A model generated the notes under the pieces. That model was not told the origin of the DNA. It did not search any database and worked only from the letters and a program-made list of their open reading frames with translations. The translations under genes and the position numbers were made by a program. Below, piece after piece: positions 13,708 to 59,456 of a DNA stretch of 64,000 nt (position 1 is its first letter; each line of letters begins with the position of its first letter). The DNA comes from a virus. Location of the stretch: IMG/VR virus record IMGVR_UViG_3300005529_000023, positions 62,001-126,000 of that record; one strand, 5' to 3'.

Positions 13708-14454
13708 TTACTTCGATTCAGAGACTATTTTTCCAGTCGCAATTGCAGTTGCCTGACTGGTGCCTGTCATCGTAATTCCATAAGCAGTAACATCCTCTCC
13801 AACTTCCCATCGAGTTACCCCGATACCATAGTTAGAAGTGGCCGAGCGGCACTGATCATTGGTTAGTTTGCACTTTGCTTTCTTTCGATTCCCGACCACA
13901 ACAATCCGTGGATCGTATACAGCTGGGTAGTAGTGGTTTTTAACAAGATCACTATGCTCATTTCCTGCAGCGGCAATAAACTTCCCGCCTTGATTCAGAA
14001 ATTTTTCAATAGCATTGTACTCTTCGAGATCAAAGTTGGGACCGCCACCAGAGTAGTTGATGAATTTAGCTTTGATGTTGGTCGCATACTTGACTGCACG
14101 AGTAAACGAATTCAAATTCTGCTGTCCGGTGTGTTTCTCAGAAAAGTACTTCAAAACGACAATGCAATAGTTCTTCTTCGGGCCGGCGTATTGGTCGATA
14201 ACTCCAACGATGTTGGTTCCATGGGAATTGAGATCCACTGGAATTGGATCTGCAGTACCGTAGTCTTTGGAAAATTTCTTATCAGCGCTAAAATCCTTAT
14301 GTCCGTATTTGCACAAATTTGCTTGGTGCCCTAAGTTCTGGAAGCCAAAGCCGGTATCGATAACTGCAACTGTTATTGGTCCTTCGCAATATGCGCTTGT
14401 GCCAAATAATCCCGTGAGGGATGTAAATAGGACTATTAGGGAAAATAGCTTCAT
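13708..14454 (-). CDS. Secreted subtilisin-like serine protease (S8)
   Basis: The catalytic triad is visible: AVIDTGFG (Asp), NSHGTNIVGVI (His) and MTGTSQATAIATGKIV (Ser), with the oxyanion AAAGNE between. The N-terminus MKLFSLIVLFTSL...SAYC is a signal peptide, so the enzyme should act in the periplasm or outside. At about 248 aa it is a minimal catalytic domain with no propeptide. The start is placed at MKLF because a consensus promoter ends 7 bases upstream. Host-surface or lysis-related proteolysis is inference. Confidence 0.85.
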   Translation of the reverse strand: MKLFSLIVLFTSLTGLFGTSAYCEGPITVAVIDTGFGFQNLGHQANLCKYGHKDFSADKKFSKDYGTADPIPVDLNSHGTNIVGVIDQYAGPKKNYCIVVLKYFSEKHTGQQNLNSFTRAVKYATNIKAKFINYSGGGPNFDLEEYNAIEKFLNQGGKFIAAAGNEHSDLVKNHYYPAVYDPRIVVVGNRKKAKCKLTNDQCRSATSNYGIGVTRWEVGEDVTAYGITMTGTSQATAIATGKIVSESK

Positions 14455-14461
14455 TAAGGAA

Positions 14462-14490
14462 ATAGTATCTACTCGCATAGACTGTGTCAA
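14462..14490 (-). promoter_or_regulatory. Consensus sigma-70 promoter for the subtilase gene
   Basis: TTGACA (14485-14490), a 17-base spacer and TACTAT (14462-14467) on the minus strand. It overlaps the end of the polymerase gene, and the -10 ends 7 bases before the subtilase ATG. Confidence 0.7.
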
Positions 14491-35518: not shown

Positions 35519-37291
35519 ATGTCATCTCGCAAGGCAAAGAGCGCACCTAAGATTTTTGAAATCGATTCGAAAACGCTCAAGAAGAAAGTACTTGATACAA
35601 TGCATAGAGTATCTGAAGCTGTGGGCCGCACTATGGGTCCAGGCGGAAGAAACATCCTGATCGAAAGTGATTACCCAGGTATCCCAAACAAGAACACTAA
35701 AGACGGCGTGACTGTTTTTAAGAGTCTCGGCGCAATCGATGCCTACGAGCACCTTATCATCGAACAGGCTCGCGACGTTGCTCAAAGAACTGCAACAGAA
35801 GCCGGCGACGGCACTACGACAGCTACAGTACTTGCCTACTCCATCATTGATAATCTTTTTGAGTTCTGCGAAAAGAATCCAAAATACAGCCCTCAAAAAG
35901 CCGCACGACGCATCACAAAGGTCACGGATGACCTACTTATTCCCTTCATCGAATCGCGCAGTATCGCAATTGGTGTAGAGAACAAAGACATGCTCAAGAT
36001 GGTGGCTACTATCTCTGCTAACGGAGATTCGGACATGGCCGCTGCCGTAATCGATGCCTTTGAACAAATTGGCTACGGGGATTCCTCGCACGTCACAATT
36101 CGCGAGCTAAGCGGCAAGAAGGGTTACAAGGTCGAGCGCATCGAAGGATTTCCAATTGCGGTAGGCTTCGAAGAGTCTATCGGCAAACTCCATACTGCGT
36201 TTATCAACGATCAAGCCAATCAGCGCTGCTACCTGGAGAATCCCTTGTTTCTTCTCTACGATGGAAACGTGAACGATCTAGTCATGTTCATTCCGCTCAT
36301 GGAATCGATCGGCAACAAGTTCGTTACCGAAGGAAACAGCGACTTCAAGAATCTCGTAATTTTCGCTCACGGATTTAGCGAGAATGTACTCACGCAACTT
36401 GCATTCAATTTCTCAAACCCAAACACGATCAATGTTTTACCGATGATCACTCCTATGGCCCAATTTCTCAACAGCCAAACTCATTTCCTCCATGATTTGG
36501 CTGCATTCACTGGTGCCAAAGTATTTGGTCTGAAGGATCAAGTCTCACAAGCCACGCTATCAGACCTGGGCCGTGGTATGGAGAGCTTCGAAGCTTATCG
36601 CTTCAGATCTACTGTCATCGGCGACCCTGACCCCGTTAACGTCGAGGTCAGGGCCGAAGATTTGAAAACCATGATGGAAAATGCGGAAAGCCAAGCAGAA
36701 AAGATCCTGCTTGAGGAACGCATCGGCAAGATCACAAACGGTATTGCCAAACTGACCATCTATGGTGGCTCAAATGGCGAGTTGAAGGAAGCTCACGATC
36801 GCTGCGAAGACGCAGTTTGCGCAGTTCGCTCTGCGATCTCACACGGCGCCCTTCCCGGTGGATGCCGAATGGCCATCGACATGGCGATTAAGCTCATGCA
36901 GGACATTCCCGAAGGAGATCCTGCCCGAGAAGTGCTGGTCCCCGCACTTTTGTCGCTTCCAAGCAAACTCCTAGATAACGCTGGTTACGACAAAGAAGAG
37001 ATCAATGATGTTATCTCCAAGCTTGTCCAAGACCAGGATACTGTCTACGATATCGAGAACCAAAAGTACGGAAAAGCTGAAGAACTTGGCCTATTTGACG
37101 CTACTAAGGCAGTTTCTGAGTCACTAAGAAATGCAGTTTCGATCGCCTCGGTTCTAGGAACCATGGGCGGCCTTGTTTGCCATCCTCGCGATGATGTTTT
37201 CGAACGTGCCGAAGCAAGGTTGGACTCTGAGTACATGCGTGCGACAGAGAATCCCAACCAATTTATCAACGAAGCTAACGAACGCCCTTAG
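35519..37291 (+). CDS. groEL: GroEL-like chaperonin
   Basis: The 590-aa protein shows the chaperonin core: GRTMGPGGRNILIE, TKDGVTVFKS, AGDGTTTATVLA (ATP-binding) and ISHGALPGG. It is longer than bacterial GroEL (about 548 aa), with the extra length in the apical/intermediate region, and lacks the GGM repeat tail. Phage chaperonins fold capsid and other proteins. Position just before the packaging and head genes suits that role. Confidence 0.9.
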   Translation: MSSRKAKSAPKIFEIDSKTLKKKVLDTMHRVSEAVGRTMGPGGRNILIESDYPGIPNKNTKDGVTVFKSLGAIDAYEHLIIEQARDVAQRTATEAGDGTTTATVLAYSIIDNLFEFCEKNPKYSPQKAARRITKVTDDLLIPFIESRSIAIGVENKDMLKMVATISANGDSDMAAAVIDAFEQIGYGDSSHVTIRELSGKKGYKVERIEGFPIAVGFEESIGKLHTAFINDQANQRCYLENPLFLLYDGNVNDLVMFIPLMESIGNKFVTEGNSDFKNLVIFAHGFSENVLTQLAFNFSNPNTINVLPMITPMAQFLNSQTHFLHDLAAFTGAKVFGLKDQVSQATLSDLGRGMESFEAYRFRSTVIGDPDPVNVEVRAEDLKTMMENAESQAEKILLEERIGKITNGIAKLTIYGGSNGELKEAHDRCEDAVCAVRSAISHGALPGGCRMAIDMAIKLMQDIPEGDPAREVLVPALLSLPSKLLDNAGYDKEEINDVISKLVQDQDTVYDIENQKYGKAEELGLFDATKAVSESLRNAVSIASVLGTMGGLVCHPRDDVFERAEARLDSEYMRATENPNQFINEANERP

Positions 37292-45288: not shown

Positions 45289-45297
45289 AATCTATCA
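45289..45297 (-). promoter_or_regulatory. Extended -10 promoter for tRNA-Met, TGATAGATT
   Basis: TG-A-TAGATT on the minus strand with TTGAAC 18 bases upstream of the hexamer. It ends 6 bases before the tRNA 5' end and overlaps the end of the 103-aa gene. Confidence 0.6.
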
Positions 45298-45606
45298 CAT
45301 CTCTCTGGCGTTGTTCAATGCCAAATTTGCACACATCACTGTTATTTCATCCTCAGTCATCTTCCTGGCATAGTCCACGATGTAACCCCAAACTAGGTCA
45401 TAGTCCAGATTCATGACCATCTGGGTAGTTTCCTTGGTTTTACTGTCATAGTGATCCATCAGAAAACCGGGGCGCGCCTTATTGCACATCACGATAGTAT
45501 GGCCGCTCGCTAGTTTGATGTCTCCACCAAGCGCAAGCCACTCCAAACAAGTTCTCATAGCCCAGATGAATCTCTTGCCGGTTGCTTCTAGATCAAGTCG
45601 TTGCAT
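45295..45606 (-). CDS. Hypothetical protein, 103 aa
   Basis: Mixed alpha/beta soluble protein, unrecognised. Last coding gene of the ABC-transporter operon, overlapping the DUF4031 gene by 14 bases. Confidence 0.6.
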   Translation of the reverse strand: MQRLDLEATGKRFIWAMRTCLEWLALGGDIKLASGHTIVMCNKARPGFLMDHYDSKTKETTQMVMNLDYDLVWGYIVDYARKMTEDEITVMCANLALNNAREM

Positions 45607-45853
45607 TTGCCCTCCAAAACCTAATCAGTGAAACGACCTTCTTTCTATCGGCAACGATAGCCCCATGGATGATAGCCAGCGCTATTTTTGTTCTACAAAT
45701 ATCGTAATGGGGTGTGCTGCCCGGTTGAAACCACTTCCTGGCGACACCGATCTTATCCGCCATAGCGTGCAGCTCTTCTAAGCTGTCCGCTAGCATGTGG
45801 CACATGATCATGCCACGATAATGAGCCTGCATGGTATCTACATAGACGCTCAC
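45593..45853 (-). CDS. DUF4031-family protein
   Basis: The pattern MCHMLADSLEELHAMADKIG...WFQ...PHYDI...ALAIIHGAI matches the small DUF4031 family seen in phages and plasmids. A GTG start that overlaps the ABC ATPase stop (GTGA) fits better than the longer frame. Length 86 aa. Function of the family is unknown. Confidence 0.75.
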   Translation of the reverse strand: MSVYVDTMQAHYRGMIMCHMLADSLEELHAMADKIGVARKWFQPGSTPHYDICRTKIALAIIHGAIVADRKKVVSLIRFWRANATT

Positions 45854-46671
45854 AGATTCTTGAACTCTTCTTTCACTTCCCTTACGAAGTCGTAAAATCT
45901 CGAAGTCTTCATGATCTCTGGATGCCAGCACAAATCGCGTTCGATCAAGTTGTATTCCTTCATGATCCTGGAACCGGGAATCTTGGTTCCATCTGGTGCG
46001 GAGTCCCTGCCCATGAGCCAAAGATGATTGGAGATCGAGGCCGCTGCAGTGATGTCATGAGTAACAACAATGATAGTGTTCAGCTCATCCTTACTGGCGA
46101 GTTTGTTCAAGAGCTGACATGTCTTGTCGAGCATTAACGGATCAAGACCGGAAAACGGTTCGTCCATGAGCAGGAAATGCTCGGAACATAACGCTTGCTG
46201 AATAATTGCACATCTCTGCCTCTGACCACCTGAAAGCTGGGCGGGATAGTGATGAGCTTTATCAATCAGATTGAACTCGTTAAGGTACTCCACCACCTTT
46301 TCGCGTGCGATCTTCGAATTGCTTTCATTCTGCATGGCCGAAACCATAAGGTTAGAAAAGACAGTACGATGATCAAAAAGGGGATAGCTTTGAGCAACTA
46401 CACCGACCTCGCCAGCGATCACGGATCTATCTTTCTCATTGATACAAACCTTGCCGGAAGTAGGTTTATTCAGACCCGCAATGATCCTAAAAAGTTGAGT
46501 TTTTCCGATACCCGATGGACCAAGGAAACCGACTACTTGACCCGGCTTTTTGCCTGTAGAAGTGAGGATATTCTTGATTTCACCGTTGACGTTCTTAAGA
46601 ACCGGCTTACCATCATATTCCAGGCAGACATTTTCGATTCTAAGAAGAGACTTACCAAGTGAGTAGTTCAT
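45850..46671 (-). CDS. ABC transporter ATP-binding protein (NitT/TauT type)
   Basis: All ABC motifs are present: Walker A GPSGIGKTQ (near residue 51), Q-loop VVAQSYPLFD, signature LSGGQRQRCA (near 147), Walker B LLMDEPFSGLD and the switch His VVTHD. The C-terminal 70 residues are an extension. It would power the permease encoded at 46962-47744. Complete ABC importer parts are very unusual in phage genomes. Confidence 0.9.
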   Translation of the reverse strand: MNYSLGKSLLRIENVCLEYDGKPVLKNVNGEIKNILTSTGKKPGQVVGFLGPSGIGKTQLFRIIAGLNKPTSGKVCINEKDRSVIAGEVGVVAQSYPLFDHRTVFSNLMVSAMQNESNSKIAREKVVEYLNEFNLIDKAHHYPAQLSGGQRQRCAIIQQALCSEHFLLMDEPFSGLDPLMLDKTCQLLNKLASKDELNTIIVVTHDITAAASISNHLWLMGRDSAPDGTKIPGSRIMKEYNLIERDLCWHPEIMKTSRFYDFVREVKEEFKNL

Positions 46672-46674
46672 TTA

Positions 46675-46965
46675 TTAAACTATGAAAGCAATGCTCCCAT
46701 AGCCCTCCGGTTCATCAACTTGTTTCATGCTTCCATCTTCTTGCATCATGAGCCAAATACGATTCTTACTCTTTGGCCACTCATGACCAAACTGTCTTTC
46801 TTCGATCACCGCGCCTTCGTACCATCCGGCTTCATCACAAAAAGACATCTTTTCTCGGGCTTCTTCAGCTGTCTTCCAAATCGTCTGAAGATGCATTCTC
46901 TCAAAACCGTAGTTTTGGCCTCTCTTATCGAATTTGAAGAAGCCTACCAAGAATACTGACTTCAT
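46675..46965 (-). CDS. Hypothetical protein, 96 aa
   Basis: A start at MKSVFLVGFF overlapping the permease stop (ATGA) is preferred to the longer frame. Soluble alpha/beta protein with no family recognised, placed between the permease and ATPase genes. Confidence 0.65.
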   Translation of the reverse strand: MKSVFLVGFFKFDKRGQNYGFERMHLQTIWKTAEEAREKMSFCDEAGWYEGAVIEERQFGHEWPKSKNRIWLMMQEDGSMKQVDEPEGYGSIAFIV

Positions 46966-47744
46966 TTTCTCTCCGTGGTCAGGGTAGAGTAAGGGCAAAA
47001 TACATTCTTGAGTATGCCGATGGCGTAGTCTTGACCGAGACCGACCAACAGAATTAAGAGCTGAATCGCCATAACTGAACTCAGATGGAAGTGCTTATTT
47101 TGGTTCAGAAGAACCGCCCCGATTCCACCTTCGCTGCGCGACATACCCTCGATCATAGTCAACATCATCCAGCCGATGGCTGCGTTCTGTCTTAAGCAGT
47201 CGAAAACCTTATCGGCCTGCCCGAGAACAATAACTTCCCAAACTTCACGCCAGGCACCCATTTTAAGTGTCTTGGCCAAATCAAACTGAACATTGGGGAT
47301 TGAAGCAAGCACGTCTAACATGCTAGTTACAAAGAACACCGCGATAGAGTAGACGAGTAAGTATAGTTTCAATTCATGGCCGCTTTTAGCCGCCATCGTG
47401 AAGAAGAAAGTGAGACCTGCCAGGGACAGGAAGCGAAGCTTCCCAAAGAAAGCGATGATCGGTTTGAAGAAAGGGATGACACTCAAATAGGCCAATCCAA
47501 TGGATGCTAAAAGGGCGATGCCGATAGCCTGAAGGTTCAAGTAAAAACTCGTAATCAGCTCAGATCCGAGTCCTTCTTGCCAAAGTTCTCCAAAGGAATG
47601 CAGGGTTTCGCCTGGGCTTGGCAGAAACACGAAATTCGAGGAAGCCCAAAACAGGAATAGGCCGATCACCTGTGCTACGACCAGTAGCGTCCCAGTAGAC
47701 TTGGATAAAACTTTGTTTGGTGAAAAGATCTCTAAGAACTTCAC
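46962..47744 (-). CDS. ABC transporter permease (NitT/TauT type)
   Basis: The 260-aa protein has about six hydrophobic segments (residues 18-38, 65-90, 95-112, 128-148, 190-210, 228-250). The cytoplasmic loop FDLAKTLKMGAWREVWEVIV is the EAA coupling loop of SsuC/TauC-type permeases. It would sit in the host inner membrane with the ATPase. Confidence 0.85.
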   Translation of the reverse strand: MKFLEIFSPNKVLSKSTGTLLVVAQVIGLFLFWASSNFVFLPSPGETLHSFGELWQEGLGSELITSFYLNLQAIGIALLASIGLAYLSVIPFFKPIIAFFGKLRFLSLAGLTFFFTMAAKSGHELKLYLLVYSIAVFFVTSMLDVLASIPNVQFDLAKTLKMGAWREVWEVIVLGQADKVFDCLRQNAAIGWMMLTMIEGMSRSEGGIGAVLLNQNKHFHLSSVMAIQLLILLVGLGQDYAIGILKNVFCPYSTLTTERK

Positions 47745-48142
47745 AGATTTAATCCAATCCCAAAACTAGCAGAAAAGCTAAATGTGCCTGAATAGAGTAG
47801 GCTGTTGTTTTCTTTTATATAGACCAGGCTAGAAAGATTCTGCTGCCAGCCAGCCTCGGGACCAAGAGCGTACACTGCTGATCCATCTGTCCTAGAAAAA
47901 GTGATCGCTTGAGCAAATCCCACGTTGATGTGTTCGCCCTGAATACCAAAGGAAAGATAGGGTTGAATGTAGCTGGAGTTTCCGGTCAAAGAGATGTCTG
48001 CATAAGGCCAATCTTTTACGAACTCATAATCAAAGCCGTAGAAAGGTCTCGTTCCGTTACCAAAGCCTGCGTCTAAAGCCATCATGTCCGCTTGAGCGAC
48101 GAGTGGAACCATCGTCAAAAGCAGGATCGCCAGAAACTTCAT
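47741..48142 (-). CDS. Exported beta-barrel-like protein
   Basis: MKFLAILLLTMVPLVAQA is a signal peptide. The mature 115 aa is rich in alternating aromatic and polar residues (FYGFDYEF, SYIQPYLSFGI) and ends in a hydrophobic strand with terminal Leu, as in small outer-membrane barrels. No family recognised. It lies between the substrate-binding and permease genes. Confidence 0.65.
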   Translation of the reverse strand: MKFLAILLLTMVPLVAQADMMALDAGFGNGTRPFYGFDYEFVKDWPYADISLTGNSSYIQPYLSFGIQGEHINVGFAQAITFSRTDGSAVYALGPEAGWQQNLSSLVYIKENNSLLYSGTFSFSASFGIGLNL

Positions 48143-48163
48143 AACAAACCTTTCTTTTGGTGA

Positions 48164-48192
48164 GGGGCACCCGTTAATCAGACGGGTGCCCC
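48164..48192. repeat. Perfect 11-bp stem-loop between substrate-binding and barrel genes
   Basis: GGGGCACCCGT and ACGGGTGCCCC with a 7-base loop and no T-run. In many ABC operons such a hairpin after the binding-protein gene stabilises its mRNA or lowers downstream expression, and that role fits here. Confidence 0.75.
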
Positions 48193-48200
48193 GAATTGGA

Positions 48201-50015
48201 CTACTTAACCAGAGTGATCTCGACTCGGCGATTCGCAGCGCGACCCGCAGAAGTCGAATTTGAACTCACAGGCTGCATGGAACCATGTCCACTGACCCTA
48301 AAGCGAGAGCCAGGGAAGTTGCTCGGAGCAGCCTGCTGCAAGAAGCTCTTCACCGCCTGAGCGCGAGCGATAGACAGAGGAAGATTGGTCTTCTGTTCAT
48401 CGCCGGTATTATCGGTGTGACCATCGATTCTGATGTTCAAGCCGGTAATAGCGAAGTTGTCCTTAAGGAAGTTCAGCTGACGAATGCCTTCCGCCGTAAG
48501 AGTAGCCTGCCCAACGTTGAAGTTAATACTATACGAGCGCGTGGAAACGACCGTATTACTACTCGAAACGTCGAAGGTCGGAGTATCAGCGGCAGCGCCC
48601 GATGAATCGGCCACGGCCTGAGCACCAGTCACGAAGGACTTGTCTTCGATATCGCGAACTTCGGGAAGCGGGGTATCCTTGAACAGCTCGCCATACTGCT
48701 GCATGACGATACTGCCGAACAGGGTGTACGTGGACCTGAAGTTGTCGTTCACGCCCGGACGAAGTCCGAACAGAATGACATTGTCTTCCAGACCATTCAC
48801 CGCCGAACCACCGAGTGAAACTTGGTTTCCTTCGCGATCCGTTTCGGTCACGCCCTTATAGTAACGATACCAGTAAGCGGCGTCCTGGTCATTGTACACT
48901 TTAGCTGAGATCTCAGCTGCCTTGTACAGCGCCTTGTCATAAGCACGAACTTGGTCGCCACCTTCGAAAGCGCCCGCAAGAAGGTTAGTGACCTCATCGC
49001 GATTGGTATTGAAGAAGGTGCGAGAGCCAATAATGACCGCAGGCATCTGAGAACGATATTCCTTCGAAGAGACGATCTTGATAAGGCCGCCCTTATTCTT
49101 GAATGCCGTCACGTCGCCAGGGGTCCAAGTGACCACTGAGTCGATGCAAACGTGCTTGGTTTCGCCCGTAGGATGGCCGTCCTTGACTACACGACGATCT
49201 TCGCACTGACCAGCAACGTACATTTCTGCTGCCTTATTGTAGTCAGGAGCGTTGACCCAGTTGATCGCGTCGGGATCATAGGTCTTCTCATCCGGGTTGT
49301 TCTTGATGTTGTTATCGCCAGCCCACTTGAGAGCGATATTCCAGTCGCCATCGCGAATAACGCCCGCCGTGAGCAAGCCCTTGGCGTTCTGAGGGTTATT
49401 CTTAACGCGAGGAGGAACCATGAAGGAGTCCTCACCACGACTGTAACCGACAGCTCCGATCACGACGAGAGAATCATTCAGCTTCTTCAGCTGGGGATTC
49501 ACTGCAGCCGCGAACTGAGCGCTACCGTCACCCATAATGACGACGAAGTTTGCCCCGGTAGAGCACTGCTTAGCACCATCGTGGATCTCCTTTGCACAAG
49601 CGAGGAGGTCTTCCTGCATCTTATTGGTGTCATCCTGGCGAGTAAGCTGGAGGTTCACCTTACGTTTTTCAAGCAGCGAGCCACGAGTCGTGGTGGCGCC
49701 ACCGTTGGCATACAGGAGACCCATCTGAGCGTTCCACTCCCAAATCTCACCACGAATGAGGGTGTTGGCCACAGATGCTTCGGAAGTCCCAGGAAACGGA
49801 GCCGGAGCCACGTTTTGAACCTGAGCGTCCTTGAGTTCAGGCAGCTGGACTTGGCTCGGGATCAGAGACTTAACGATACCCGGAGTCGGGATCACGCCAA
49901 GTTCTGCGCCCTTGCGAAGGCCAAAAAATGCTACCGCACATACAAACACAGTGATCAGGAGCTTCGCAAGAAGCGTGGCCCGGCCACTTTCATCGTTCCA
50001 GATATCAGTTTTCAT
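48201..50015 (-). CDS. Substrate-binding protein fused to an OmpA domain
   Basis: The 604-aa protein has an N-terminal membrane helix (LLITVFVCAVAFFGL, residues 18-33), a long periplasmic alpha/beta region (60-470) resembling NitT/TauT-type binding proteins, and a C-terminal OmpA domain (about 495-604). The latter includes FNVGQATLT, RIDGHTDNTG (Asp) and GRAANRRVEI (Arg), the meso-diaminopimelate-binding residues. It would link inner membrane, ligand and peptidoglycan. It is encoded with an ABC permease and ATPase. Confidence 0.85.
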   Translation of the reverse strand: MKTDIWNDESGRATLLAKLLITVFVCAVAFFGLRKGAELGVIPTPGIVKSLIPSQVQLPELKDAQVQNVAPAPFPGTSEASVANTLIRGEIWEWNAQMGLLYANGGATTTRGSLLEKRKVNLQLTRQDDTNKMQEDLLACAKEIHDGAKQCSTGANFVVIMGDGSAQFAAAVNPQLKKLNDSLVVIGAVGYSRGEDSFMVPPRVKNNPQNAKGLLTAGVIRDGDWNIALKWAGDNNIKNNPDEKTYDPDAINWVNAPDYNKAAEMYVAGQCEDRRVVKDGHPTGETKHVCIDSVVTWTPGDVTAFKNKGGLIKIVSSKEYRSQMPAVIIGSRTFFNTNRDEVTNLLAGAFEGGDQVRAYDKALYKAAEISAKVYNDQDAAYWYRYYKGVTETDREGNQVSLGGSAVNGLEDNVILFGLRPGVNDNFRSTYTLFGSIVMQQYGELFKDTPLPEVRDIEDKSFVTGAQAVADSSGAAADTPTFDVSSSNTVVSTRSYSINFNVGQATLTAEGIRQLNFLKDNFAITGLNIRIDGHTDNTGDEQKTNLPLSIARAQAVKSFLQQAAPSNFPGSRFRVSGHGSMQPVSSNSTSAGRAANRRVEITLVK

Positions 50016-50040
50016 TGTTTTCCCTTTCTTTCAGTTTCAG

Positions 50041-51066
50041 TTATTGCAGTACGTTCTTGAACTTGCCTGACTTTGCAGGAACGGCAACTTTCTGCGGTTC
50101 CTTAGCAAAGTCCACGACCTGGGTGGGATCGTAAGCCTGTGAAATCAACACAGCCTTGTCGGTTCCCAAGAGAGCGCTGCTACCGCTCTTTTCCCATTGC
50201 TCAAGCATTTTAAGCGCATCATCCTGGATGACACCCTTTTCGAGGTCCACACCCTTGATGATACCCTGAGAGAGGTCCATGATGTCGTCGATCTCTGCCA
50301 ACTGCTTGTTCGCAGTTTCAGCAATATTCTCCATCGCGCGATTGAACATCTCAGCTTCAGGGCCACTGCCGCCGATAACCTTCCATCCTTTGACCATACC
50401 CGCATGGGCAGCCATGATGGCTTTTCTTTCTTCCTTCTTGATCTCAAGTTCGCTGCGCGTCTTCTTGATGTTGAAATCGACGGTCGAAACCATCTTGTCA
50501 AGCACGCGATACATGAGTTCAATCTTGTTCTTCGTCTCAGTGAGAGACTTATTAGACAGTGTCAGCTGTTGAGCTTCGAGAGCCATCAAGGTTCGGCCCT
50601 GAACATCGCCCTGCTTTTCAGCCTGCTGAGCCATCTTAAGGTCTCTCTCAGCGCGATCTGCATTCGACTTGATCTTAGCCGTGAGACCCTTGAGTTGGCC
50701 ACCGACTTCGGCCTTACTTGACGACATCTCGTCCAAGCGAGACTGCATGATCTTGATGCTGGTCTCGATGACACCGATTGGATCTTGGTTTACGATGGCA
50801 TATCCAATTGCTCGGGTGAGAGACTTCCAAGCGTAGTACACCGCCGTGTGGACGTTCTTGTCTAGGGCCGCGAAAACCAAGGCCGCAAGAACTCCCATGA
50901 GGAAAACTGCGTAGATCGTGTTGGTCGCAGCCAAAATCACGAACGGCAGAAGATGGATCGCAGCGTAAGTCAGAAGTGCCGCCAAGGCCAATCCAACCAC
51001 GGGAGCGCCAATGAAGTTTTCACTCTTCTTCCACCAAGGCTTTCTCGAAACAGTCGTCGTATCCAT
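50041..51066 (-). CDS. Membrane-anchored PspA-like coiled-coil protein
   Basis: Two hydrophobic segments (residues 19-45 and 50-68) are followed by QDPIGVIETSIKIMQSRL and a long coiled coil (95-225), which recalls the PspA/IM30 layout, and then a helical tail. Length 341 aa. It is probably part of the envelope machine encoded by this operon. The PspA link is by eye. Confidence 0.6.
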   Translation of the reverse strand: MDTTTVSRKPWWKKSENFIGAPVVGLALAALLTYAAIHLLPFVILAATNTIYAVFLMGVLAALVFAALDKNVHTAVYYAWKSLTRAIGYAIVNQDPIGVIETSIKIMQSRLDEMSSSKAEVGGQLKGLTAKIKSNADRAERDLKMAQQAEKQGDVQGRTLMALEAQQLTLSNKSLTETKNKIELMYRVLDKMVSTVDFNIKKTRSELEIKKEERKAIMAAHAGMVKGWKVIGGSGPEAEMFNRAMENIAETANKQLAEIDDIMDLSQGIIKGVDLEKGVIQDDALKMLEQWEKSGSSALLGTDKAVLISQAYDPTQVVDFAKEPQKVAVPAKSGKFKNVLQ

Positions 51067-51089
51067 ATTTTCCTCTTTTCCTTATTGCA

Positions 51090-51734
51090 TTATTGCAGAT
51101 ATTGACCAATTTTGTCAATGTTTGTTTTGATCGTATTCCTCAGAGTGTCAAGAGTGACACTGAAGGCAGCCTTTCTGGAATCAAGCTTCGCCTTTTCGGC
51201 ATGTAATTCCTGAGTCAGCGTAGCGCTGTCCTCGGTCAGCTGACTCAGCTGCTTTTTAAGGTCGGCGATCGTAGATTCGACCTTGGCTAACTTGGCTTCA
51301 CGGGCTTGGACCTGAGCCCTCTCGTACTCCGCGCAGTCGGCATTGAAATCATTTTCGTCCTGGTTCAGCACATCGATATAATGCTGGCCAGACTTGAGGA
51401 GGGAGTTCTTGTCCACGCCAAGCTGCTTGGCCGTGGAAAACGTCACCTTGTAACAAGCTTCCTCGGCAAGACCCGTAGATTTGGTTTCCTGGACCGCAGA
51501 AATGAACTTGAGATAGTCGAAACCGGCCAGCTTGTTTTCCTCAAGCGACTTGGTCAACATCTCGTTGAGTGCAGGGTCGATACTCGGGGCCGGCACCGAG
51601 AAACTGAATGATGTAGAGGAAGGGATCGGAGTTCCAGTGGACACGTTGGTTGTGGCAGTTGGTGCCGCAGGCTTGGCCTTCGCAACCGGCATATCGTCTT
51701 CAACCAAACCAAGCTTCGTCAGAAAGTTCTTCAT
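51090..51734 (-). CDS. Cytoplasmic coiled-coil protein, 214 aa
   Basis: A Thr/Ser/Pro-rich linker (residues 15-55), a helical domain and a long C-terminal coiled coil (135-214). No signal peptide. First gene of the envelope operon, with RBS AAGGAGATAGCATG. Probably a partner of the membrane coiled-coil protein. Confidence 0.65.
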   Translation of the reverse strand: MKNFLTKLGLVEDDMPVAKAKPAAPTATTNVSTGTPIPSSTSFSFSVPAPSIDPALNEMLTKSLEENKLAGFDYLKFISAVQETKSTGLAEEACYKVTFSTAKQLGVDKNSLLKSGQHYIDVLNQDENDFNADCAEYERAQVQAREAKLAKVESTIADLKKQLSQLTEDSATLTQELHAEKAKLDSRKAAFSVTLDTLRNTIKTNIDKIGQYLQ

Positions 51735-51790: not shown

Positions 51791-52108
51791 CTATTTTTTG
51801 GAATTTAATTCTTTAATGATTTCATCCAACTTGATGTGCAAACCCTTGATATATTCTCGATCTCGCTCCACTTGCCTGTTCTGGCTCATCATAATAATGG
51901 GACTTTGCATCGTACTAACAATAGTCAAAAACAAATTTAAAAGAATGAAAGGATAGGGATCAAAATGGGCGCACAAAACCAGTAGAGTATTGAGTAAAAC
52001 CCATACTGTGATTCCAGCAGAAAACCAAAAAACAAATCCCCATGATCCGCAGAATTCAGCGATGTTATCGGACCAGCGCTGCGACCTACTTCTGTTGTCC
52101 GTTTCCAT
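51791..52108 (-). CDS. DUF1003 membrane protein
   Basis: Two transmembrane segments (about residues 23-45 and 52-72) with HFDPYPFILLNLFLTIVSTMQ then PIIMMSQNRQ, the DUF1003 signature, and a coiled tail. Family function is unknown. It overlaps the phosphatase gene by 23 bases. Confidence 0.85.
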   Translation of the reverse strand: METDNRSRSQRWSDNIAEFCGSWGFVFWFSAGITVWVLLNTLLVLCAHFDPYPFILLNLFLTIVSTMQSPIIMMSQNRQVERDREYIKGLHIKLDEIIKELNSKK

Positions 52109-52733
52109 CGCTCTCCCATTGTTTTGTGAATTTTACCCAAGAAGACCATGAAAGTTCGAGTCTGTTGCCAAGCGTATCCAGGCTTTCGTAGCCCCATTCG
52201 GTGTCCTCGGCATTTTTGGTAGCCAGAGCAAGTTTTTCTAGCTCTGGATAATCTCGAATGTAGCTTCGCCAATACTCCATGGGACAGGAATGGTAATTTT
52301 CTTCCTTGCCATAGAGAGTACGTGCCTGAGCAATAGCATCAGCTTGTTCGGGATGGTAAGTAAGCAAATAGGCCCCAAAGACCGTAACGGATCTGTGGGT
52401 GCCTGCATCGCAGTGGATAAATACGTGGCTGAGCTTCAGCTGGTCGATCCAATAGTGAAGCGTACGCAAAGAACCATGAATCACTTCTGGTGAAGGAGGG
52501 CCAGATTCGCGCCATGGAAACCATGCCTGGAAGGTCCACATTGGCTGCGGGACAAAGCGATCGGTAATGTTCATCCATGCATCGATTTCATCCAGGTCAA
52601 ACTCGCTATCGCAGCTAGAGGGGTAATCTGGCCTTCCAGCCACTAAAACAGTGGTTTCTCCTACTTTATATGAGGCCGCCCGAACCCTCTTCTTGCTTAT
52701 ATCGCCATTCCACCAATGTCCTGTCCTATTCAT
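52086..52733 (-). CDS. Dual-specificity/tyrosine phosphatase-like protein
   Basis: VFIHCDAGTHRSVTVF (near residue 105) is the HCx5R catalytic loop, with the general-acid candidate in FDLDEID upstream. Length 215 aa. It could dephosphorylate host proteins or nucleotides. RBS AAAAGG precedes the ATG. Confidence 0.8.
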   Translation of the reverse strand: MNRTGHWWNGDISKKRVRAASYKVGETTVLVAGRPDYPSSCDSEFDLDEIDAWMNITDRFVPQPMWTFQAWFPWRESGPPSPEVIHGSLRTLHYWIDQLKLSHVFIHCDAGTHRSVTVFGAYLLTYHPEQADAIAQARTLYGKEENYHSCPMEYWRSYIRDYPELEKLALATKNAEDTEWGYESLDTLGNRLELSWSSWVKFTKQWESDGNGQQK

Positions 52734-54910: not shown

Positions 54911-55732
54911 TCATACCTTCTGGTAGATCTGCGCGATTCTTTGGTTCAGATACTCTTGAGCCGTGAAGCCTGGAGCTAGAAGCGTATCGCCGTGAGGATG
55001 AACAAAAAGAGGCATGCTAACACGATCAGAAGAGGAGTCATCAGGGTTGATAACCCTGTGAGTAGTAGACTTAAAAAGACCTTTAGAAGCAAGCTGAAGC
55101 ATATCGCCAATATTGACAACAATAGAATTTTCTTCATGGGGAACGTCATGCCATTTTCCTTCTTTGTCGAGAACCTGCAAGCCAGGTGCGCTTGCAGCTA
55201 CAAGCAATGTAATGAAGTTGATATCTTCATGTGCGGCTGCTCGAACTGCGCCCGGCTGAGCAGTGAAGTTCAATGCTGGGTAGTAGATCGTGCGAAGGAT
55301 CGTATTATCACTCTCTTCGCAAGCGGCTCTGTATTCAGTAAGACCATCTTGAAAATCGTCGATCACCTTGAGGATCTGACTTGAGATGTCTTCCAGTTGA
55401 AAGAAAATAGACTGGGTTACCGTAGAGACATCGCCCGGAAGAAGCTTGCCTGGCTGCCAGTGATAGAACTCCTTCAGATCTGAAACTTTAGCGCCGACAG
55501 CCTTCTCGGAACCGAAAGCCTTATAGCCCAAGTTTCCATCTTCTTTATTGACGAACTTGCTCTTGTAGCTTGGCTTATCAAGGAAAAACATGCGCCATGC
55601 CGACTGCACGTCGCGAATAAGACCATGATCAATTCCGTGATGAGTGATAACTGCAAACCCGGTGTTGATTACTGAATCAATAAACTCAGCTCCAAAGTCG
55701 CTGGAACGCAAATTACAGACCTTGATATTCAT
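54911..55732 (-). CDS. Isopenicillin N synthase-like Fe(II)/2OG oxygenase
   Basis: The facial triad is visible: AAHEDINFITLL (HxD, near residue 178) and STTHRVINP (His, near 233), with DRVSMPLFVHP carrying the RxS 2-oxoglutarate-binding pair. The N-terminal NTGFAVITHHGI is typical of the DIOX_N domain. Length about 273 aa after choosing the MNIK start, preceded by TTGGAG. The substrate is unknown; nucleotide, peptide or small-molecule oxidation are possible. Confidence 0.85.
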   Translation of the reverse strand: MNIKVCNLRSSDFGAEFIDSVINTGFAVITHHGIDHGLIRDVQSAWRMFFLDKPSYKSKFVNKEDGNLGYKAFGSEKAVGAKVSDLKEFYHWQPGKLLPGDVSTVTQSIFFQLEDISSQILKVIDDFQDGLTEYRAACEESDNTILRTIYYPALNFTAQPGAVRAAAHEDINFITLLVAASAPGLQVLDKEGKWHDVPHEENSIVVNIGDMLQLASKGLFKSTTHRVINPDDSSSDRVSMPLFVHPHGDTLLAPGFTAQEYLNQRIAQIYQKV

Positions 55733-55786
55733 CTTATGGCTCCAATCTTTAAGTATAGGATAGAGCAAATAAGGAAATAAGACAAT

Positions 55787-57917: not shown

Positions 57918-59456
57918 TTACACCTTTGCTCTAGCCCTAACTTCCTCAAACGTAGTTGCGTTGAGGATCTTACCGTTCTCGAAGATCGGAACCAACATGT
58001 CGCCAGACATCTCGTGATCAAGAGTCAGTCCATCTGTGTAGTTGATCTTCCCGTTAGCATCCTTCCAAACAGCAACCTTACCCTTTTGGCTCTTCTTGAT
58101 CCCGTCATCGGTCTTAGGATTCTTGAAGATCTGCTTCTCTTTTCCGTTGATCACGCACGCAGTAGACTTGAGTGCGAAACCAAAAGTATCTCGGGTGTTG
58201 TATTGATAGGTGTACGAACCAATCCCGAAGACTACGTTGATCGAAGCGAAACCCTTGGCTTTAAGCCTATCCATAATCTCTTTGGCGCGATTGAGTGTGA
58301 TCGCATCACCGTAGATCAGGCCAATATGGGAGTCAAGCAGGCAGTAGCCATTGGCGGTGACAGTTCCACCGAAGATATCCCAAAGAGCTTCGACGGCGCC
58401 TTTATGTTGAAGGCTTCCCCTCGGAGCATCGGGATCGCCGCAAACGATAAGGACTGGATCTCCTGAGTCAGGACGAATGACTACTTTGTCGAGACCGATC
58501 GGGCTGCCCTTGCGAGCGAGAATGTCCTTCTTGAGAGCAGGAATCACTCGTCCGATCACATCCCAAAAGTCGTATCCATCGGAAACGATCGACACTGGAC
58601 CGCTAGGATGAACGACATTGATGAGAGTTCTCAAATATTCCATGTCGTCGCCATAAGCGCACTGGATGCTGTGCTCGGAAGCAGGAATGGAAGTTCCAAC
58701 GAGTTCCTTTTCGATGTTAGCCTTGTAGTAGTACTCAGCTGAGGAAATCGACGGACACGTATCTGTTCCAGAGAACTGAGTCAGATGGCCCATGCCAGTG
58801 AGCATTCCAGCGTGAACACCCATCATTCCTCTCATCGAGAAATCATGGCCTTGGAACATCACAAAGCCCGTATCACCGACAGTTTCCATTGCTGCCTTAT
58901 TGAGGATCTTACGATACTCACGAGCGATGGTAGCTGCGGTGTAGCAAGGCCACAGTTCGCAGGAGGCCAAAGTCTCGATGTAGTTCGTGAGCCAAAAGAA
59001 TCGGGGATCGGTGTTCTGGATCGTGAGAACTGGCGTACGAAGAGGAACAACCGTTCCTTCTGGAAGTGCCTTGATGAGCAAGGGCAGATAACCCAAGTCA
59101 TGAAGCTCTTCAAGATGCTTCGTTTCAGGGTTTTGATCGCCGAGAGTAAATTTCACGAAGCGAGTGTACTCCGCGAGCACTTCTTGCTTATTTCTCTTAA
59201 AGAAGTTCTTGTTGAAGTAGTCGATCAAGAACCTCTTAGTGAAAGCCTGATTACCGAAAACGGCGACTTCACAGACATCCTTCATGCGCGTAGCGCGAGG
59301 AGTCCAAGTGGAGTACACGAGCTGCGTTCCCTTGGGATACATCGGCCTGTGTGCGAGCTTGTAGAAGTCGCACAAAGCAGCTGCCAAAGGCTCAAATTCG
59401 CCCGGCGTGTTTAGGGGAAACTCCATACCAATATCGTGACTGTAGTAGTTGCTCAT
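57918..59456 (-). CDS. Nicotinamide phosphoribosyltransferase-like protein (Nampt/NadV or Namat)
   Basis: The 512-aa protein has the Nampt layout: FYKLAHRPMYPKG at the N-terminus, FQGHDFSMRGMMG near residue 200, TSIPASEHS near 255, SIVSDGYDFWDVI near 290, VVIRPDSGDPVLI near 322 and INVVFGIGSYTYQYNTRDTFGFA near 415. Canonical Nampt makes NMN from nicotinamide and PRPP. In the phage NARP1 pathway a homologue (Namat) instead joins nicotinamide to ADP-ribose pyrophosphate. The Prs-like gene next door makes that option worth testing. Confidence 0.9.
   Translation of the reverse strand: MSNYYSHDIGMEFPLNTPGEFEPLAAALCDFYKLAHRPMYPKGTQLVYSTWTPRATRMKDVCEVAVFGNQAFTKRFLIDYFNKNFFKRNKQEVLAEYTRFVKFTLGDQNPETKHLEELHDLGYLPLLIKALPEGTVVPLRTPVLTIQNTDPRFFWLTNYIETLASCELWPCYTAATIAREYRKILNKAAMETVGDTGFVMFQGHDFSMRGMMGVHAGMLTGMGHLTQFSGTDTCPSISSAEYYYKANIEKELVGTSIPASEHSIQCAYGDDMEYLRTLINVVHPSGPVSIVSDGYDFWDVIGRVIPALKKDILARKGSPIGLDKVVIRPDSGDPVLIVCGDPDAPRGSLQHKGAVEALWDIFGGTVTANGYCLLDSHIGLIYGDAITLNRAKEIMDRLKAKGFASINVVFGIGSYTYQYNTRDTFGFALKSTACVINGKEKQIFKNPKTDDGIKKSQKGKVAVWKDANGKINYTDGLTLDHEMSGDMLVPIFENGKILNATTFEEVRARAKV

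Follow-up and report, generated by a model that had tools for sequence, protein, structure and literature searches.

Why a phage should carry a whole transport system that is tied to the envelope of its host is the question raised by positions 45295-51734 of the DNA analysed here. The window (the whole stretch, 64,000 nucleotides) corresponds to bases 62001-126000 of the virus record IMGVR_UViG_3300005529_000023 (176,870 base pairs), and within these positions lie tightly packed open reading frames (ORFs), all on the minus strand. A preliminary description had read them as an operon for an ABC (ATP-binding cassette; ATP, adenosine triphosphate) transporter and associated envelope proteins; the observation itself is confirmed, and the interpretation is partly supported. 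We are very confident of what this operon is and of its descent: a mobile envelope module, here in a copy carried by a phage. The joint role that we favor, in which an importer and a PspA-type scaffold maintain the inner membrane and the solute balance of the host, is less certain than that, and we hold it with modest confidence.

Read 5' to 3', the operon encodes a coiled-coil protein, a PspA-like protein, a binding protein fused to an OmpA-like domain, an exported protein of 133 amino acids (aa), a permease, an ORF of about 96 aa, an ABC ATPase, a DUF4031 protein and an ORF of 103 aa (Table 1). All of the named genes are intact minus-strand frames, with no break in either the permease or the ATPase, and a search for minus-strand terminator-like sites from the coiled-coil gene to the ATPase gene found none. 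Five genes form the core, those for the coiled coil, the PspA-like protein, the OmpA-fused binding protein, the permease and the ATPase. DUF4031, the barrel-like exported protein and the 96-aa ORF lie outside it, so the preliminary membership list stands as to frames and strand but is wider than the conserved unit; DUF4031 does belong to the run of genes, but the last frame of that run is a different one, the 103-aa ORF. The context of the operon is viral. Genes for terminase and portal lie on one side, genes for DNA ligase and an NAMPT-like protein on the other, and the same window also encodes DNA polymerase, DnaB-like and GroEL-like proteins. GC content at third codon positions is 0.60-0.63 in the coiled-coil, PspA-like and binding-protein genes and 0.47-0.52 in the ATPase and barrel-like genes (window 45850-51734), an unevenness hinting at mosaic ancestry.

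Relatives in other viruses had to be collected by alignment searches, as searches with single sequences gave few. The resulting viral set comprises 84 contigs, found with alignments of the binding protein and of the permease, plus LR756500, an uncultured phage of 462 kilobases (kb), 85 in all; because LR756500 and the IMG/VR contig L037 carry identical copies of the cassette, the number of distinct phages is smaller than this. Seventeen of the 85 contigs exceed 200 kb. All five core genes are present in 67, in the order coiled coil, PspA-like protein, OmpA-fused binding protein, permease and ATPase, and several of the incomplete loci stop at a contig edge. The gene order that the preliminary description proposed to seek elsewhere is thus widespread in viruses, and it also occurs in chromosomes of Acidobacteriota and Bacteroidota. 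The accompanying claim that complete importers are very rare in phages may hold for phages overall, but the importer of the window recurs in many unlike large ones. Two further searches gave little: DUF4031 was the sole match at the DNA level in phage records, and only OmpA domains were found in plasmids.

Forty-five loci were selected as unlike (permeases less than 75% identical), and the only families common to more than eight of these are the five core families. The operon is therefore a self-contained cassette and not a piece of one phage lineage's genome. Among viral copies, most informative pairs have a ratio of non-synonymous to synonymous substitution rates (dN/dS) of about 0.03-0.13, and a few lie at 0.20-0.28, mostly at very low dS; the cassette is under strong purifying selection. 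In two pairs of contigs (L068/L077 and L025/L032), the 5' genes are near-identical and the 3' genes have diverged, a pattern suggestive of recombination within the cassette. A terminase match was obtained in 20 of 29 large records, which is support and not proof of viral origin, since control bacterial genomes also give terminase matches; a search for portal families matched three of the 29. An AAA+ ATPase is present in a few viral loci.

The transporter itself can be assigned part by part. A profile of the permease matches CmpB (1.7e-8) and NrtB (5e-6) in the PDB, and 34 of 41 permease relatives match BPD_transp_1; the window permease sequence alone gives no Pfam match. The ABC motifs noted earlier in the ATPase make up the full catalytic set (Walker A GPSGIGKT, LSGGQ, LLMDEP, SGLD and THD), and the protein is an ABC_tran match. 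This ATPase was found in 81 of the 85 viral contigs, and across 80 viral relatives Walker A, the signature and Walker B are present in 77-79 and the H-loop pattern in 71. With the permease recognized at family level and the binding protein by its predicted fold, the gene set of a type I ABC importer of the NitT/TauT class is complete, and the phage does encode it, with the binding protein fused to OmpA and a PspA-like protein alongside, as first described.

The binding protein, present in 79 of the viral contigs, combines an inner-membrane anchor, a binding region and an OmpA-like domain. In its AlphaFold model (predicted local distance difference test score 88.9), helix 15-39 is hydrophobic enough for a membrane anchor, and Foldseek places the binding region in the periplasmic-binding fold, with NrtA, CmpA, TauA and SsuA nearest and the OmpA-like domain C-terminal to it. 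The binding fold proposed earlier is thus borne out by the predicted structure. At the level of sequence, the binding domain alone matched no solved structure and its matches to NMT1 are only marginal; a full-length match to the fusion protein was not found in a library of predicted viral structures. Many polar residues of the binding domain are invariant across phages and bacteria, including (in full-length numbering) R126, D128, D163, E195, D196, D222, D224, D242, D247, D301 and D411, and because of these we would guess that the ligand is charged or metal-bound. The OmpA domain is secure (PF00691, 1.3e-15, 58 bits against a cut-off of 27.2), and its residues D535 and R551 are invariant in 39 sequences. 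These are taken as the Asp/Arg pair by which such domains are expected to bind diaminopimelate, and the domain should grip peptidoglycan. Since it would combine an inner-membrane anchor with a peptidoglycan-binding domain, the protein is predicted to tie the inner membrane to the wall.

The remaining two core proteins have counterparts in bacterial operons. In profile comparison, the coiled coil of the window matches its counterpart in such operons at 96.5%. The PspA-like protein matches the bona fide PspA of a related bacterial operon (itself PF04012, 3e-15) at 92.9% in hhalign, collinearly over 204 columns, while two other helical families used as controls give 12%. By profile or fold kinship, it belongs to the PspA/Vipp1/Snf7 (ESCRT-III-like) superfamily. 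A different assignment, as a homologue of a bacterial 300-aa transmembrane (TM) coiled-coil protein, was rejected at an hhalign value of 12%, and a tblastn search of phage records with the PspA-like protein gave no match.

The module is not confined to viruses. When bacterial and archaeal genomes were scanned, 398 relatives of the binding protein turned up in Acidobacteriota, Myxococcota, Armatimonadota, Bacteroidota, Patescibacteria-type groups and others, of which 80 were kept. Most of the bacterial loci have the OmpA-fused binding protein, permease and ATPase together. Close to these genes, in the 80 loci, the 300-aa TM coiled-coil protein occurs in 45 cases, the coiled coil in 39, PspA in 14 and an AAA+ ATPase in 10, and some relatives have a bona fide PspA and an AAA+ ATPase in the same operon. 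The full phage-type order is found in Acidobacteriota chromosomes amid ordinary metabolic genes, and in Bacteroidota chromosomes, where it adjoins ATP synthase genes and is followed by an AAA+ gene. Its occurrence is patchy (8 of 396 Bacteroidota genomes and 11 of 396 Acidobacteriota genomes). Viral and bacterial rows are intermingled in trees, and well-supported branches force at least five changes without fixing the direction of transfer; the clade of the window copy holds 12 viral and three acidobacterial rows. The bacterial rows were selected for their similarity to the window, so the trees give a biased view. The best reading is of a module that moves horizontally.

These parts suggest how the module could work. 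The binding protein would be held between inner membrane and wall, where it may catch a small solute or ion, possibly a charged one, and pass it to the permease, with ATP hydrolysis driving import. The PspA-like protein may form a scaffold close to the transporter, on the cytoplasmic side of the membrane, which it would stabilize, remodel, seal or bend. A phage that makes the module would thereby keep its host cell energized, intact and in solute balance through a long infection until lysis. In a broader form, large phages of several bacterial phyla would have in common a self-contained PspA/ESCRT-III-type membrane-maintenance machine, driven by a wall-anchored ABC transporter, that keeps the envelope sealed and energized and is exchanged with host chromosomes; this we offer tentatively, at somewhat less than even weight.

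Several observations weigh against a joint role in import and membrane maintenance. The PspA-like protein falls outside the classical PspA/IM30 family: it scores 13.2 bits against the PF04012 cut-off of 33.9, and it has two N-terminal TM helices, whereas classical PspA has none. Its best fold matches are indeed Vipp1 and PspA, but they are weak (E 3e-3). No AAA+ partner is encoded in the operon, and the record of the window, which may be incomplete, gives only sub-threshold matches to one. Finally, the long contigs L003, L011, L033 and L051 are without a detectable coiled-coil or PspA-like gene, and because several viral contigs lack these genes, the coupling of importer and PspA-like protein may not be obligatory.

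The remaining possible alternatives stand in the order of nutrient importer, FtsEX-like device and superinfection exclusion. It may be that the operon is a plain nutrient importer, an auxiliary metabolic gene set for one limiting solute of the nitrate, taurine, bicarbonate or thiamine type, and that the PspA-like protein and coiled coil only help assembly. The gene set is complete, its fold and permease class match oxyanion and sulfonate importers, the binding domain keeps its many invariant polar residues, and L003 has the binding protein, permease and ATPase without the other two genes. However, those two genes accompany the transporter in most phages and in bacterial relatives, nutrient-binding proteins do not usually carry a peptidoglycan anchor, and no metabolic gene is recurrently linked across the 45 unlike loci; we consider this explanation unlikely.

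Less probable still is a wall-sensing or force-transmitting device analogous to FtsEX, in which the binding protein, attached to peptidoglycan, would be moved by cycles of ATP hydrolysis and a signal passed to the PspA-like scaffold. The permease is of the importer class (BPD_transp_1, NrtB/CmpB) and not FtsX, and the binding domain has the complete periplasmic-binding fold, its polar residues conserved; both argue against such a device even though the OmpA fusion, the inner-membrane anchor and the PspA-like partner would suit it; the ATPase scores against FtsE too, among many families. Superinfection exclusion or a change of the cell surface, with the proteins preventing other phages from adsorbing or from bringing in their DNA, would be consistent with the membrane and exported proteins, with the presence of an accessory barrel-like gene in two lineages of phages, and with the suggestion, made in a paper on huge phages, that phage membrane proteins may alter susceptibility to other phages (PMC7162821). 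It is nevertheless quite improbable, as the same operon is ordinary in chromosomes of many phyla, the catalytic transporter core is strongly conserved, and the exported protein, the likeliest surface part, is the least conserved. That the operon is bacterial DNA misfiled as viral, or an assembly chimera, is very hard to credit: its nearest non-viral relatives are chromosomal (Acidobacteriota, 66% identical) and the 63-kb contig L009, which groups with a bacterial copy, could be an instance of this, but the operon of the window lies between phage genes, and the cassette recurs in the contigs above 200 kb, in large records with terminase, and under purifying selection among viral copies.

Beyond the core, the exported protein bears on a further claim, that the parts could span both membranes. 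The binding protein is predicted to link the inner membrane to the wall and no further; reach to the outer membrane would depend only on the 133-aa protein, whose barrel nature is unproven. That protein has no family match, and its beta-strand pattern does not exceed that of shuffles (p 0.08). A second clade of phages encodes an exported protein, mostly of 150-165 aa, that resembles a small outer-membrane beta-barrel (L068:9540-9995; also in L074-L077, L079-L081, L083, L085, L088, L091, L093-L095, L097, L098, L101, L102 and L110), and its gene mostly sits between the binding-protein and permease genes, where the window has its 133-aa ORF. No kinship between the two proteins was detected by sequence. 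The 96-aa ORF has no relative among the fetched loci other than in the window's own record.

Table 1. Features of the operon and of the gene preceding it, in window coordinates
Feature	Position	Strand	Remarks
DUF1003 membrane protein, outside conserved core	51791..52108	-	PF06210 1.8e-25
Coiled-coil protein, 214 aa, first core gene	51090..51734	-	Open frame; family in 70/85 viral contigs
PspA/Vipp1/Snf7 (ESCRT-III)-like protein, 341 aa	50041..51066	-	Two TM helices at about 26-68
Inner-membrane-anchored binding protein fused to OmpA, 604 aa	48201..50015	-	Binding fold about aa 80-470, OmpA-like aa 499-596
Exported protein, 133 aa, possibly small beta-barrel, accessory	47741..48142	-	Signal-peptide-like N-terminus
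ABC permease, NrtB/CmpB/TauC class, 260 aa	46962..47744	-	Open frame; profile matches in PDB
Small ORF, about 96 aa, not conserved	46675..46965	-	No family
ABC ATPase, 273 aa	45850..46671	-	Pfam ABC_tran 8.8e-26; all catalytic motifs
DUF4031 protein, GTG start overlapping end of ATPase gene	45593..45853	-	PF13223 1.9e-25
ORF of 103 aa, last of run	45295..45606	-	Distinct from DUF4031

Among the neighboring genes, DUF4031 is frequent in other phages and is probably an unrelated neighbor. The DUF1003 gene lies 56 bases upstream of the operon on the same strand and is possibly co-transcribed with it. A dual-specificity-phosphatase-like protein is encoded further upstream (window 52086-52733), and a homologue of it (37% over 100 aa) occurs within the L003 module, in the interval between permease and ATPase (L003:14308-14904). 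The NAMPT-like gene of the window (57918-59456) has counterparts elsewhere: in L002, a nicotinamide mononucleotide adenylyltransferase/Nudix-like gene and NAMPT directly follow the module (L002:13483-15832), and NAMPT is near the module in L008 (L008:4147-5673). These genes possibly serve to restore nicotinamide adenine dinucleotide (NAD+) against host defence. Salvage of NAD+ was not used as a hint to the ligand, since NAMPT is near the module in just a few viral loci. Two membrane proteins upstream of the module in L002 (367 and 189 aa; L002:6035-7722) are TPM/LemA-like by eye and gave no Pfam match over the cut-off. Other genes in the window encode a 2-oxoglutarate-Fe(II) oxygenase of the DIOX_N/2OG-FeII_Oxy kind (54911-55768), a serine protease of the subtilase family (S8), apparently with a signal peptide, adjoining the DNA polymerase gene (13708-14490), and the GroEL-like phage chaperonin, upstream of terminase (35519-37291).

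Single transport genes are already known in phages; here, a complete wall-tethered importer comes with its own PspA-like protein. One gene order in many unlike large phages, together with strong selection, suggests that upkeep of the host envelope is a general need of large-phage infection. The phage form also provides a handle on a bacterial operon known so far from one passage of comparative genomics, and the question of whether PspA/ESCRT-III-like proteins and the importer form one machine becomes testable.

Compared with characterized importers, the operon resembles NrtABCD and CmpABCD (for nitrate and bicarbonate), TauABC and SsuABC in permease class and binding fold, but unlike theirs its binding protein is OmpA-fused and TM-anchored and has PspA-like and coiled-coil partners. 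The PspA-like protein is akin to PspA/Vipp1 in its profile kinship with the PspA of a related bacterial operon and in its top fold matches, and departs from them in its N-terminal helices and its Pfam score. A pspA-like gene is also present in the huge Jug phages (preprint, PMC12363816), where, however, it adjoins terD; the text of that work names no ABC transporter or OmpA. ABC transporters are not mentioned in the main text of a paper on huge phages (PMC7162821) or of a 2026 review of jumbo phages (PMC13282480), and no mention of a phage-borne version of the operon was found in the open-access papers searched, outside which an earlier report is possible. The kind is thus already known in bacteria as a prediction, and its widespread phage-borne form appears to be undescribed in those papers. 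The closest precedent is a single passage of Ravi et al. 2024, which predicts a bacterial PspA/Snf7(TM)-AAA+-ABC ATPase-permease-PBPB::OmpA operon (example OGG56892.1) and proposes that such operons couple membrane remodelling with transport (PMC11237479); the words virus and bacteriophage are absent from its main text. Both systems unite in one operon a PspA/Snf7 homologue, with or without TM helices, an ABC ATPase, a permease and a solute-binding protein with OmpA. The operon of Ravi et al. includes an AAA+ ATPase, whereas the record of the window has no AAA+ match over the cut-off; and while theirs is bacterial only and a prediction only, the operon described here resides in phage genomes, in a fixed order of five genes and with a coiled-coil partner.

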